Source: Candidatus Poribacteria bacterium
Lineage (GTDB): Bacteria; Poribacteria; WGA-4E; WGA-3G
Direction: 5' to 3'
Assembly: GCA_022827885.1 (NCBI GenBank)
Contig: JAJEIP010000120.1
Span: forward strand, 1 to 64,000
Length of the DNA stretch: 64,000 nt
Numbering within the stretch: the first letter of the stretch is position 1; every line of letters begins with the position of its first letter. A program made the translations under genes and the position numbers. Below are positions 38,375-43,773 of this stretch, one piece after another. A model generated the notes under the pieces. The model was given only the letters and a program-made list of their open reading frames with translations. It was not told the origin of the DNA and made no database searches.

Positions 38375-38629
38375 TTACAGATGCAATGCTTGACGGAGGC
38401 GCGCCCAGAAACCACCAATGTTATGCTTTTGTGGTGGAGATTCTGGTTGTTCTTTGACTCTGATGTGAAGATCCACCACATTTTCAAAGGCTTCCTGCAG
38501 TTCTGCATCGGTATCCCCGTGAAAACCTATAATATCATCACCAGGATCAACAACGTGGCCCACAAAACACTCATCTTCGTCACTGTAGATAATTTCCGCT
38601 GTATACCCTCTATATGTCATTGTTTTCAT
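38375..38629 (-). CDS. HicB-like antitoxin-family protein (orphan)
   Basis: An 84-residue protein with the HicB partial RNase H fold: YRGYTAEIIYSDEDECFVGH, then GFHGDTDAELQEAFENVV. HicB normally neutralises the HicA mRNA interferase. No HicA-like (about 60 residues, double-stranded RNA-binding fold) frame is found on either side, and there is no C-terminal HTH/RHH domain. It is therefore an orphan. The ATG at 38629 is used; the Shine-Dalgarno is weak. Confidence 0.82.
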   Translation of the reverse strand: MKTMTYRGYTAEIIYSDEDECFVGHVVDPGDDIIGFHGDTDAELQEAFENVVDLHIRVKEQPESPPQKHNIGGFWARLRQALHL

Positions 38630-38749: not shown

Positions 38750-40690
38750 TTAATACCAGACCCGATAGACAGGTATCCCAAAAACCGCACCCACTAAACT
38801 CCAAAACGTTCCCATCAGAAAGTCGCCCAGAACCACGCCGACAAAGAATGGAGCAGCCTTCCGATAGATGCGTAACCCCCCGAATTTGAGGAGGACCGCC
38901 TTGATGATCCAACCCACACAGATCGCGCTCCAGACCCAAACCATTCCTGCGGATAAACCGAGTGCATAACCCGTTGGATGGAAGGGAAACCAGATGAACT
39001 GTCTTCTCAGGAACATCAATCCCAACGTGAACAGCGAGGCGAACGCAGTGAAACTCAATCCCGTGCTATCTGTCGCGTGTGATTGTTGTAACCACGGGAG
39101 TAGCATCCGTTCAAAGGTCTCAAGACCGATGCCAATAATATATCCCTCAGTTCGCACTGCGCCGTGTTGATAGATGAGGTGCAAATATGCCCAGAAAGAG
39201 ACAGGTATAGCAACCAATAGGGCGACTATCATAGCGATCGCCATCTTTTTCTGGGAAACCGGGGCGCGTTCGGCGATTTTGAACCCTTCTAACTGACTCG
39301 GCATTGGGTGCGAGACGTTGTCGCGAACATACGGATATAAGAAAGAGAAAAGCGTCAAATTCGCCGCGCCCGTCCGTCGTGTGCCTAAAACCGAGACGAT
39401 CATCAGTGGTGGATGCGTCCAAATGACTTCATGATACGGCACACCGACCGCCGCCCGCGCGTATGTTATCGCGATAGACATGAGGAAATAGAGGCATAGG
39501 AAGGCGAGGAGAATTCCAACGGACATGCCCGCCTGTTGAAAAATAATAACGAGAATCGTCGTGCCTACCAAGATGCCGAGGAGTGCGGTGCGGTAGTGAA
39601 ACGGTTCATTACTGGAGGGTGCCGCACTGTTTCCAAGAGGCTTCAAAGCCGTCGTAAATACTGCTTTGAGGTGCTTACGGCTTGTCCATAGGATGAGAAT
39701 CCCAAGCGTCAACCAAGCACCGATGCCCTGTTGATTGTAATAAGGAAACCCTTGCAGCGATTTCCAGCCGCCGATACTCCCTACAATCAACTGAAATTTT
39801 GTAAACAGAAAAAAGAACCAGACCGAAAACGAGAGTTCCAGTGGCACGAAGAACGTCAATGCGATGACCCAAGGGTAAAAGAAGAGCGGTAACCATCCAA
39901 TCGCGTTCCAAGGTTTCGTGGTAAAGATTTTCGTCCCGAAATCGGGTATTTTAAGTGGCACACCCGGCACAAACGGATAGAGAAAGTGGAGTCCATTGAG
40001 GAGTTCTATCACGGCACAGATACTAAACCCAAGCCACAGCAATCTTCTCGAAAAAAAGCGTGGCGTGGTCATCTCTATGGGAAGCTGGGCAATCGGATAA
40101 CTCAGGCGTTCCCGTTCGCTCCATTGCAACCGCTGGATGCTGTTGAAACACAGTAAAATAAAGAAGAGAATAAACGTGACAAACGACCAAAGCAACACAG
40201 GACCTATCCATGCGAACAGGTGTCTCGGCGTGTAGAGGGTCGAGTTCCCTTCAAAGAAACCCGTGAGCGCCCCTTTATCTTGAACCGTGAACCACGGCGG
40301 GATATACCGATGGAAAAGCGTTGCGTATTCGTTTTCAAAAGTAGCGAACCAGAACGGATGCGCGAGGATTCCGAGAATGAAATCCATCGGGTTGTGTCCG
40401 GAGACGACACACAGCATGACCAGCATCTGGTAGACCAAGAGGAGTTGGGCGCGGTTCAAAGCGAATTGTGGGCGGATCCGCTTCAGCAGCGTATTGATTA
40501 ACAGGAGAAAAAAGAGGTTGACGATTGGGGCGATAAACAGGGAGGCATAAGCGGGATTCAGGGAGTGGTGGATACCGCTGACGAAGGCGATCCAATATGC
40601 GTTGAGAAGGATCAGAGCCACCCCGATGGTGAGCGGCGGAAGGAGCGAGGTTGATTCGGTTCCGATTGACGATGCTGAGGGCATTTTCAT
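38750..40690 (-). CDS. DUF6785/DUF6784 family integral membrane protein
   Basis: A 646-residue protein with about 14 hydrophobic segments and the blocks VSGHNPMDFILGILAHPFWF and GFFEGNSTLYTP, which I recognise from the DUF6785/6784 family. It resembles oligopeptide-transporter-like membrane proteins, but no transport substrate is known. Its ATG follows immediately after the TAA of the MazF gene with no spacer and no obvious Shine-Dalgarno, so it is probably translated by coupling. Large loops face both sides of the membrane. Confidence 0.8.
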   Translation of the reverse strand: MKMPSASSIGTESTSLLPPLTIGVALILLNAYWIAFVSGIHHSLNPAYASLFIAPIVNLFFLLLINTLLKRIRPQFALNRAQLLLVYQMLVMLCVVSGHNPMDFILGILAHPFWFATFENEYATLFHRYIPPWFTVQDKGALTGFFEGNSTLYTPRHLFAWIGPVLLWSFVTFILFFILLCFNSIQRLQWSERERLSYPIAQLPIEMTTPRFFSRRLLWLGFSICAVIELLNGLHFLYPFVPGVPLKIPDFGTKIFTTKPWNAIGWLPLFFYPWVIALTFFVPLELSFSVWFFFLFTKFQLIVGSIGGWKSLQGFPYYNQQGIGAWLTLGILILWTSRKHLKAVFTTALKPLGNSAAPSSNEPFHYRTALLGILVGTTILVIIFQQAGMSVGILLAFLCLYFLMSIAITYARAAVGVPYHEVIWTHPPLMIVSVLGTRRTGAANLTLFSFLYPYVRDNVSHPMPSQLEGFKIAERAPVSQKKMAIAMIVALLVAIPVSFWAYLHLIYQHGAVRTEGYIIGIGLETFERMLLPWLQQSHATDSTGLSFTAFASLFTLGLMFLRRQFIWFPFHPTGYALGLSAGMVWVWSAICVGWIIKAVLLKFGGLRIYRKAAPFFVGVVLGDFLMGTFWSLVGAVFGIPVYRVWY

Positions 40691-41128
40691 TTAATTTTCG
40701 AGAATCGCGCGTAAACTCTCTTGTATTTCTTCAATCCCAAATCGGTCTAATAAGTCTTCCAATATCTCCTCAAGGTTAAATGATTCCATTATCCCAAGAA
40801 GTGCTTCCATTTTTCGTAAGACCCTATGGAATGTTTCCTCAGGTACCTGACAAATAAACGTTGCTCTTCTCTGCCGCCAGTCCATGCTCTTTGCTTGATC
40901 CGCGAGTACAACTCCTTCTATTTCTAATCCTGCTGGAATCTCGACTTCAAACGGGTTATCCCTTCTTGTACTCGTAATTGGACAGAGGAACGCCAAATTC
41001 ATTGCAGTGCTGTTATAAATCTGTGAAGAGATAACAAGAGCAGGGCGACGTTTCTGAATCTCATTTCCTTTTTGCGGATCAAAGTCAATCCATACAACAT
41101 CGCCAGCCTCTGGAATGTATTCCAACAT
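40691..41128 (-). CDS. mazF: MazF/PemK family mRNA interferase toxin
   Basis: A 145-residue toxin of the PemK/MazF endoribonuclease family. Diagnostic parts are PEAGDVVWIDFDPQKGNEI, RRPALVISSQIYN, LAFLCPITST and VVLADQAKSMDWRQR; the Arg and Thr/Ser residues expected for RNA cleavage are in these blocks. The C-terminal ~25 residues are extra. AGGAG lies 11 nt before the ATG. It follows the MazE-like antitoxin gene after 14 bp and shares its promoter. Confidence 0.92.
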   Translation of the reverse strand: MLEYIPEAGDVVWIDFDPQKGNEIQKRRPALVISSQIYNSTAMNLAFLCPITSTRRDNPFEVEIPAGLEIEGVVLADQAKSMDWRQRRATFICQVPEETFHRVLRKMEALLGIMESFNLEEILEDLLDRFGIEEIQESLRAILEN

Positions 41129-41142
41129 AGATTATTCAACTC

Positions 41143-41388
41143 CTACCAGATTTCGTTTCCAACTGCGGAGCCGGTGGAGGTCTCACTATGTGCGTTTTCT
41201 TCTGTAACTTGGGCTACGAGGTCAGCTAACTTCAGACGAGGCAGCTTCGCTGTGCGGCGCACTTTGGCATGTTGATGCGGTTTACTATTTGTCTCTTTGA
41301 CATCCTCTTTATCACCACATTTTCCCGAGATTGGAGGAACATCAAGCTGCGTAAGGGCTTTCTCGGAAGAACCTGTTTTTTCTTTCAT
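41143..41388 (-). CDS. MazE-like antitoxin with MazF-binding tail but no AbrB domain
   Basis: An 81-residue polar protein. Its last ~30 residues, LKLADLVAQVTEENAHSE followed by TGSAVGNEIW, match the MazF-neutralising tail of MazE antitoxins (pattern LxxLLAxITxENxHxE...GxxxGxExW). The first ~50 residues are charged, low in hydrophobics and do not resemble the AbrB/SpoVT DNA-binding fold that MazE normally carries. AGGAG lies 7 nt before the ATG and a 17 bp-spaced promoter is upstream. Position directly before mazF supports antitoxin function; autoregulation must differ from classical MazE. Confidence 0.75.
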   Translation of the reverse strand: MKEKTGSSEKALTQLDVPPISGKCGDKEDVKETNSKPHQHAKVRRTAKLPRLKLADLVAQVTEENAHSETSTGSAVGNEIW

Positions 41389-41420
41389 GGTGTATCTCCT
41401 TTTTAGACTGCATTTGAAAA

Positions 41421-41449
41421 AGTATACTACATTTTATGGATGAAATCAA
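41421..41449 (-). promoter_or_regulatory. Sigma-70 promoter of the MazE-like/MazF/DUF6785 operon
   Basis: TTGATT (41444-41449) and TATACT (41421-41426) on the minus strand are 17 bp apart. A dispersed repeat copy (41468-41515) ends about 18 bp upstream of the -35 box. Confidence 0.7.
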
Positions 41450-41467
41450 TGCGTTGTTATTTTCTAA

Positions 41468-41515
41468 GAATCCGCGAAATCTGTGTAATCCACGAAAATC
41501 CGTGATTCAGACAAT
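41468..41515 (-). repeat. Dispersed ~45 bp repeat, copy 3
   Basis: Contains AATCCGCGAAATCTGTGTAA, TCCACGAAAATCCG and TGATTCAGAC. It has the same orientation as the copy at 7002-7047. Confidence 0.75.
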
Positions 41516-41535
41516 TGACGAAATTTTCACACATT

Positions 41536-42552
41536 TTACCGATCCTCAATCATCTCACGAGTGGCGGGTCTCTCTGGTGCTACCGGTTCCGGACGCTGAC
41601 TCAGCCACCACGCAAAAACGACGACGAGACACGCAAGCACAATCGCACTCAGCGCCATCGGGACACCTGTGGATGCGCCGTCACTGACATCGATCTGGTA
41701 TTTCGCGACGACTGCTGATGCCACAGCAATGACCGCCAACACGAGGTTCACCTGCCACGGAATCTGAAAAAGCACTGCAATGAGCGAAATCACAGCGACA
41801 GTGAGACTCAATTGGGCAAACGGATGGTAAGGGATCGCATCGACCTCGTCAGCGTCAGTTGCGGCACTGGCGCGATGTGGAAGCGGCGGCGCGCCCTCTT
41901 GATACGTCATCTCGATGAGACGGATGAATTCGGCGAGAAGTTTTCCGTCTTGGATCCACTCGAAGAGATCGGGGTATTCGTGGCGGAGAAGTATCACGAA
42001 CTCTTGACGTTGCGCACTAAAATCCGTGAACTCTTCCCAATCGTTCTCTGGGACGATGACGTAGGGTTCAGGACCGACACGGAGTTCGTATCCCTGTCCT
42101 GCCATATAGACGACACTGCCGATGCCTTCACGTTCGGCAAAGACGATCTCTGTCGAATTCCCGGAATCCCTCTGTTGACTTCTGTCTTCCTGAACGACAG
42201 TCATATCGCGTTGCTTGAGCGCTTCCGCTGCTTCTTCAGCGTGCGTCGCCATTTCGTTGTCCGTGACGGCTACCCCGATGCGGCTTACCAGTTCCATCGC
42301 TTCCACTTCGTGTTGCGGTTCAACGAGGAGAGCGGTTTGGCGTTCCTCTCTTAATTCAATCGGACGGCATCGGATCTGTTGCGCGCTCAAAGTGGCTTGG
42401 ATGAGTTTCACTTCCCATTCATCGTTGGTGCGGTGGATCTCGACCCACTCAGGGGTGCTACCGATCCCCTCACCGAACAGTTGAGACACCTGTCTCACTT
42501 GCCCTTGACTCGATTGTGAACCCTGTGGTGGACTCACTGTCTTTTCTCTCAT
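41536..42552 (-). CDS. Membrane protein with N-terminal DUF2007-like and C-terminal DUF4190-like regions
   Basis: A 338-residue protein. Residues ~35-95 (WEVKLIQATLSAQQIRCRPI...LLVEPQHEVEAMELVSRI) fit the small DUF2007 signal-transducing fold, and a second partial copy may follow. A cytoplasmic middle part contains acidic helices. Three to four membrane segments at the C-terminus (LTVAVISLIAVLFQIPW onward) resemble DUF4190. AGGAG lies 10 nt before the ATG at 42552, which rules out the longer frame. It is the last gene of the RbsA-TsaE-glycosyltransferase run. Function unknown. Confidence 0.65.
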   Translation of the reverse strand: MREKTVSPPQGSQSSQGQVRQVSQLFGEGIGSTPEWVEIHRTNDEWEVKLIQATLSAQQIRCRPIELREERQTALLVEPQHEVEAMELVSRIGVAVTDNEMATHAEEAAEALKQRDMTVVQEDRSQQRDSGNSTEIVFAEREGIGSVVYMAGQGYELRVGPEPYVIVPENDWEEFTDFSAQRQEFVILLRHEYPDLFEWIQDGKLLAEFIRLIEMTYQEGAPPLPHRASAATDADEVDAIPYHPFAQLSLTVAVISLIAVLFQIPWQVNLVLAVIAVASAVVAKYQIDVSDGASTGVPMALSAIVLACLVVVFAWWLSQRPEPVAPERPATREMIEDR

Positions 42553-42597
42553 TATAAATAACTCCTCTGTCTGTGTAGCGGAAACATGCAATCGTGT

Positions 42598-43773
42598 TTA
42601 TCCTACGGCCAACAGTTCAGCGTAAACAGCTTCCGTCAACGCCGTGTTCTTTTCGCTATTAAACAACTGCTCAGCGCGGTTGCGAGCGGCTGCCCCCATT
42701 GTCTGCAATCGTTTTTGATCCGTTGCAAGGGTTGCAATAGCCTCCGCAATCGCCGAGGCATCTTCAGGTGGCACTAAAATCCCTGTTTCGGGGGTAACGA
42801 GTTCTTTACTGCCACCGAGTGGCGTGGCAATGACGGGTGTGCCGACCGCCATTGCTTCAATGATAGTGCGCGGGCATGCCTCCGGGATAATAGATGGCAC
42901 CAACATAACGTCGAGCAGGCTTGTAACCACCCGCGTATCCGACAAAAACCCAGTAAAGATGACCGAATCTTCAACGCCTAAATCTATGACCTCCTGTTTG
43001 AGTTCGTTCATATAGTCAATATCCTTTTGGAAGTAAGGACCGCCAACGATCAACAGTTTGCTGTCTATTTTTCCTTTGAGTTCCGCGATCGCTCTGACTA
43101 AAAAATGGATACCTTTCTCCGGCGTAATTCGAGTCACGACCCCCGTAACGGTGGAGGGATCGGAGGTATTGGGAAAGAGTTCCGATCGGAGGGTTTCCAC
43201 CTCTTCCGCGGATGCTTGAAAAGCATCTAAGTTGACCCCGTTATAGATTAACGTCTGTTTCGCCGTAGGCGCGAAATTCCAGCGAGTTGCCTCCGAAACG
43301 AGTATCACACGGTGCAAAAATCTTTCGCAAATCCGATCCAGAATGCCGTAGGAAGTCGCGTAGCGTTTGTGCATCAGGATCGGGATACGGTTTATCCGCG
43401 CAACGATGCCGCCGAGAAGTGCTACCGAAAGCGAGTTCGCATGAATGAGGTCGATCGCACACCGTTTTACTGTTTGATGGAGTTGAAGGATCACCCCAAG
43501 TTGCCGGAAGTCGTCAAGTAGATCGCGGAGGGTAAATCGTTGGACCTTATCGGTTTTGTTATGTGCCGCGGGTAGAGACAGTGGAACGACACTTGCCTCC
43601 GTCTTTTCTACCTCGGCTGCGAACGGGCTATCACCGAGGCATCCGACATACGGCGTAAAGCGATCCGTATCTAATAGATTGAGCAGGAGTAGGAGACTGC
43701 GTTGTCCGCCGCCGATGCCCGAACCGCTATCGAGATATAGGATGTTGGATTTCGATGTGTCGGATGTTTTCAT
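42598..43773 (-). CDS. Glycosyltransferase family 4-type protein
   Basis: GT-B glycosyltransferase of 391 residues. The N-terminal domain begins ILYLDSGSGIGGGQRSLL. The donor-binding C-terminal half has ITPEKGIHFLVRAIAEL and EACPRTIIEAMAVGTPVIAT with the family E-x7-E arrangement. The product is probably cell-surface polysaccharide or glycolipid. The ATG at 43773 is chosen from homology; it lies 47 bp inside the 3' end of the TsaE gene. The longest frame, to 43836, overlaps even more and adds no conserved residues. Confidence 0.88.
   Translation of the reverse strand: MKTSDTSKSNILYLDSGSGIGGGQRSLLLLLNLLDTDRFTPYVGCLGDSPFAAEVEKTEASVVPLSLPAAHNKTDKVQRFTLRDLLDDFRQLGVILQLHQTVKRCAIDLIHANSLSVALLGGIVARINRIPILMHKRYATSYGILDRICERFLHRVILVSEATRWNFAPTAKQTLIYNGVNLDAFQASAEEVETLRSELFPNTSDPSTVTGVVTRITPEKGIHFLVRAIAELKGKIDSKLLIVGGPYFQKDIDYMNELKQEVIDLGVEDSVIFTGFLSDTRVVTSLLDVMLVPSIIPEACPRTIIEAMAVGTPVIATPLGGSKELVTPETGILVPPEDASAIAEAIATLATDQKRLQTMGAAARNRAEQLFNSEKNTALTEAVYAELLAVG

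Follow-up and report, generated by a model that had tools for sequence, protein, structure and literature searches.

We identified a two-gene toxin-antitoxin operon of Poribacteria in which MazF is probably neutralized by the C-terminal half of MazE alone, with a second helix probably serving as a bivalent clamp in relatives of the antitoxin. MazF is an RNA-cutting toxin whose usual antitoxin is MazE. Type II antitoxins are usually two-headed, with one half that binds DNA and autoregulates and another that binds the toxin; in classical MazE, an AbrB domain dimerizes the protein and binds the operator. Many antitoxins of the Poribacteria, a sponge-associated bacterial phylum, that appear to act against MazF lack the DNA-binding half of MazE and have kept the toxin-gripping peptide alone. 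The window, by which we mean the whole stretch of 64,000 nucleotides analyzed here, comes from a Poribacteria metagenome assembly (5.13 Mb), and the closest relatives of its mazF in the genome collection are from Candidatus Poribacteria. Loss of AbrB, conservation of the helix and tail, pairing with mazF and duplication of the helix at a regular spacing are all evident from the sequence comparisons below.

Both genes lie on the reverse strand, and an ORF check agreed with the coordinates given for the pair in a preliminary description of this DNA. The antitoxin ORF (81 aa, 41143..41388) is followed after 14 bp by mazF (145 aa, 40691..41128), and only 147 bp separate it from its upstream neighbor. 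A ribosome-binding site read from the sequence (AAGGAG, 41396..41401) and a sigma-70-like promoter (TTGATT-17-TATACT, 41421..41449) precede the antitoxin gene on the same strand. Among the flanking genes, matches to DUF2339/DUF4190 were weak and those to DUF6785/DUF6784 were strong.

The product of mazF belongs to PF02452 (PemK fold family; E 6.3e-27, 94.4 bits against a cut-off of 23.1) and matches solved MazF enzymes with a best E of 4.6e-29. In the alignment, E23, R28 and T52 occupy catalytic positions of known MazF and are kept in the relatives L004-L006; their correspondence to the E24, R29, T52 region of E. coli MazF rests on numbering matched by eye. E24A is the altered MazF used in PMC12557383, and Arg28/Thr51 are the residues of Klebsiella MazF named in PMC8086154. 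In the window, mazF is apparently intact; its dN/dS against L004 is 0.09, as is that of the MazF core. Residues 118-145 (LEEILEDLLDRF..., 40694..40777, reverse strand) form a C-terminal extension beyond the matched core that is conserved in L004 (dN/dS 0.13). This extension vaguely resembles the toxin-binding helix of the antitoxin and is helical in a poor predicted model (pLDDT 42.7).

The preliminary description held that the protein ahead of mazF ends in a MazE-type, MazF-binding peptide, and several comparisons agree. The only NCBIfam hit was MazE PRK09798, which aligned antitoxin residues 47-81 with MazE 48-82 (E 0.031). Aligned with the MazE C-terminus, helix and tail included, the last 35-36 residues show no gap, and both proteins end in W; 13/36 position-matched residues are identical to those of E. 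coli MazE. A tail profile built from 19 relatives, the window tail among them, matched E. coli MazE (1mvf and 1ub4, E 3.5e-6 and 3.8e-6) and Deinococcus MazE (7d2n, E 1.4e-4), ungapped to the C-terminal residue in each case, and no score as high against either MazE arose in 100,000 shuffles of the window tail. The preliminary description was right about the C-terminal peptide but drew it too short, as the MazE-like part, which takes in the toxin-binding helix, begins at about residue 46-47. In MazE, PMC12557383 defines site II as residues 54-67 (helix) and site I as residues 68-82 (extended tail). By the ungapped alignment, antitoxin residues 53-66 (41191..41232, reverse strand) correspond to the former and residues 67-81, an acidic extended tail (HSETSTGSAVGNEIW, 41146..41190, reverse strand), to the latter. 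Structure prediction, for which only three sequences served as input (pTM 0.17), gave one helix at residues 54-67 and nothing else, which is the position of the toxin-binding helix of MazE; we take this shallow model as supportive. At the sequence level, the window protein has kept both the MazF-binding helix and the tail.

The N-terminal part of the antitoxin (residues 1-46, 41251..41388, reverse strand) is charged and predicted to be disordered. A Pfam scan of the window antitoxin at E ≤ 10 found no AbrB, RHH or HTH domain and matched zero models, and the same kind of scan found no DNA-binding domain in nine window-type proteins (that of the window and eight orthologs) or in eight family members drawn from its subfamilies. 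As a positive control, the scan recovered PF04014 in an AbrB-bearing Poribacteria MazE (E 5.8e-14). The predicted structure had no secondary structure before residue 54 and no fold in the N-terminus. A frameshift that conceals AbrB, raised in the preliminary description, was ruled out: an AbrB profile run against all six frames of 40601..42700 found nothing; the control for this search was one of the sequences from which that profile was built. The N-terminus also matched tau (6cvn, E 1.8e-4), but this was dismissed as chance, the match being made up of four short low-scoring pieces of which none passed alone. These scans and the predicted structure favor the earlier view of residues 1-50 as unlike AbrB, charged and probably disordered, and together with the tail match they give good sequence-level support to the proposal of an AbrB-free peptide antitoxin. 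The window protein lacks the defining domain and so should not be classed as a PF04014 MazE, although its mode of action very probably matches that of a MazE C-terminal half.

To place this protein among its relatives, a tail-profile search was made of 85 Poribacteria genomes and 120 loci were then read. AbrB was missing from 99 of the tail frames at these loci and present in 21. Of the former, L193, L213 and L214 are fragments or read-throughs from outside family f1, which leaves about 96 real AbrB-less members. Directly before a full-length mazF match there were 55 AbrB-less genes, every one in family f1, and two of the mazF frames concerned contain an internal stop (L167, L218). In a control set of 586 genomes from two other phyla, all 22 tail matches carried AbrB, counting one weaker match in a Desulfobacteraceae genome. 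On a MazF tree built from few columns, AbrB-associated rows fell on one side of a branch, with a single change in 72% of bootstrap trees. This is consistent with a single origin of AbrB loss in one Poribacteria family. A separate Poribacteria mazEF clade (L103-L105, L108, L110, L219-L228) has a divergent AbrB and reads KSENS for KWGNS; one of its proteins falls below the PF04014 cut-off (17.6 vs 24.7 bits). Among open-license papers, literature searches turned up nothing on Poribacteria MazF and, on MazF antitoxins that lack a DNA-binding domain, only a review on three-component systems; for tandem or bivalent toxin binding, general reviews and an unrelated paper were listed.

Could the antitoxin simply be a decaying MazE that lost AbrB and is now disappearing? 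Such decay would account for the several orthologs in which mazF is missing or truncated, for an in-frame stop in one ortholog (L015/L176) and for another that is split (L018). The AbrB-less state, however, extends across the whole family, consistent with one origin, and the 55 pairs with a full-length mazF match are spread over many species. Among orthologs of the window antitoxin, pN/pS averaged 0.29 over residues 41-81 and 0.64 over residues 1-40, and dN/dS of the tail region was 0.10 at loci with mazF and 0.15 at those that lack it or have a broken copy. The tail is, by these ratios, under purifying selection, and a pseudogene in the window is ruled out by them. Since both selection and census speak against decay, we regard that reading as largely refuted and highly improbable. 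Some copies of the antitoxin may have another role, because several orthologs keep the antitoxin with mazF absent or broken downstream.

The preliminary description saw a single AbrB-less antitoxin, which stands; it missed that the protein belongs to a large family, in which many members carry two copies of a unit made of a linker and the helix motif P-x-(Y/F/L)-(T/K)-L-x-(D/E)-L-L, followed by one tail. Among the 55 AbrB-less genes before mazF, 35 have two units and 20 have one. Measured between conserved helix leucines, the spacing in two-unit genes is 41 residues in 34 of 49 and 39-43 residues in 45 of 49; the first helix itself lies anywhere from residue 1 to residue 192. This spacing is kept over linkers that differ: clustered at a 40% cut, they form eight sequence classes, which we would merge to at least five. 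The number of units has changed at least five times on the MazF tree. In some subfamilies, such as most of the KPHRxEKVGR class, the two repeats of a gene resemble each other more than the same repeat does across species, which points to concerted evolution; the KGS class does not show this. The window protein carries a single unit, and no vestigial first helix was detectable in it (p 0.78). Its relatives L005/L019 and L152 have two, and several relatives of the RPIPRPNYTIEELL type retain a vestigial first helix. Subfamilies represented by L030, L033, L090, L134, L198, L201 and others start with a common hydrophobic stretch, E-C-L-x-x-I/F-A-Y-L, possibly a dimerization helix or a diverged copy of the toxin-binding helix.

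We propose that this short, mostly disordered antitoxin neutralizes MazF with the C-terminal half of MazE alone. The amphipathic helix (residues 53-66) would enter site II, a hydrophobic pocket at the edge of the MazF dimer, and the acidic tail after it would lie in the RNA-binding groove (site I). Published E. coli work on isolated peptides lends weight to this proposal. MazE 54-67 alone inhibits MazF, and 68-82 and 48-53 do not (PMC12557383); in the same study, two molecules of the helical peptide SamF occupied site II of one MazF dimer, and SamF was active in vivo. According to PMC3281143, MazF is bound by the 23-residue C-terminus of MazE, which on one site of the dimer inactivates both. 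A protein with helix and tail alone should therefore neutralize MazF. About half of the family has the second linker and helix, 39-43 residues upstream, and because two SamF helices bind per MazF dimer, a two-helix chain could fill both pockets. One chain would then probably occupy both site-II pockets of a dimer, and the second helix would stand in for the dimerization otherwise provided by AbrB, the operator-binding domain that has been lost in one Poribacteria family. By analogy with SamF, such a one-chain bivalent clamp on the MazF dimer is plausible; its main support is the constant spacing, which could partly reflect common descent from a two-unit ancestor. At somewhat less than an even chance, we put the fuller evolutionary account, by which the lineage gave up DNA binding and exchanged AbrB dimerization for covalent bivalency, with two helices about 41 residues apart spanning both pockets and repeats homogenized in some subfamilies; the window protein would be its one-helix version.

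With no AbrB in the window protein, there is no known means of dimerization or operator binding, and an AbrB-less antitoxin would be expected neither to bind DNA nor to autoregulate. The upstream blocks conserved among orthologs are TTGATT-17-TATACT and the ribosome-binding site only, which fits the loss of an operator. No third, regulator gene was found in the operon or between the antitoxin and its promoter. An inverted-repeat test gave the same outcome for AbrB and AbrB-less promoters, the AbrB control group being without palindromes too. Autoregulation might instead have been kept, with promoter DNA bound by the basic, disordered linker or by the antitoxin-MazF complex. The promoter is well conserved, linkers in several subfamilies are rich in R and K (RRTAKLPR in the window, PHR-containing ones in relatives) and some contain GRP motifs, all of which would suit such binding. 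Yet the linkers differ completely among subfamilies, one class (VPNRSIPEEAYSP) being hardly basic, and no operator-like repeat is conserved upstream among orthologs apart from the -10 region. We judge retention of autoregulation unlikely and its loss in the window operon likely.

The arrangement shares features with several known systems. As in E. coli and Deinococcus MazE (PF04014; 1UB4, 7D2N), the gene lies directly upstream of mazF on the same strand and its C-terminal helix and tail align ungapped; these MazE proteins have AbrB, whereas the window protein has none and many of its relatives have two helices. B. subtilis MazE (4ME7), described in PMC5086665, is another MazF antitoxin in which the toxin-binding part is C-terminal and the N-terminus is not AbrB, but it has an RHH dimerization and DNA-binding domain, of which we found none, and the tail here is of the E. 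coli MazE type. The three-component systems PaaR-PaaA-ParE and omega-epsilon-zeta, also described in PMC5086665, have an antitoxin without a DNA-binding domain as well; here, by contrast, no regulator gene was seen, the binding segment resembles that of MazE and MazF is the toxin. SamF and the MazE 54-67 peptide (PMC12557383) and MazEp, the C-terminal 23-mer of MazE (PMC3281143), inhibit MazF, as the window protein would, through a stand-alone helix or C-terminal segment that binds where MazE does. All of these are peptides or fragments from the laboratory, whereas the Poribacteria arrangement is natural, genomic and paired with mazF. If our reading is true, the Poribacteria family would be a natural counterpart to the peptide inhibitors of MazF that laboratories now make. 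As a large natural family that seems to use the toxin-binding half alone, it allows the need for autoregulation and dimerization to be tested. The near-constant spacing of the two helices would represent evolved answers to the problem faced by designers of MazF peptide inhibitors, in which the role of bivalency can be tested directly.

Most orthologs of the antitoxin gene share the same upstream neighbor, and the slot after the antitoxin varies. In place of mazF, it holds a DarT1-type NADAR antitoxin (L011), SLFN_AlbA_2 (L012), DUF5677 (L013) or DarT (L017); in L016 and L018, HicA and a HicB-like gene lie behind a 20-codon mazF stub. The slot looks like an exchange site for toxin-antitoxin and defense genes. 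It may be that the antitoxin is kept as a free-standing antidote or docking site, with mazF swapped out and MazF made elsewhere in the cell neutralized. The different modules behind one upstream neighbor (L011-L013, L016-L018), the constraint on orphan tails and the presence of several MazF in genomes would agree with this. However, mazF in the window is intact and 14 bp downstream, and the pooled pairwise dN/dS of orphan tails includes ancestry shared before mazF was lost, and we consider such a role improbable.

Elsewhere in the window, an 84-residue HicB-like ORF (38375..38629, reverse strand; MKTMTYRGYTAEIIYSDEDECFVGHVV) without a Pfam match is very like the gene after HicA in L016/L018. 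In L086 (G000:C44:124680-126085) and L101, the N-terminal part of a different antitoxin (MITISKELRQAI...) is fused to a MazE-type helix segment, and a mazF with an in-frame stop comes next. The genome of the window also encodes an AbrB-less tail protein that has two units and a C-terminus that is altered (L002/L206, G000:C9:19907-20092); no mazF lies behind it, and the next gene encodes an ABC-transporter-like permease.
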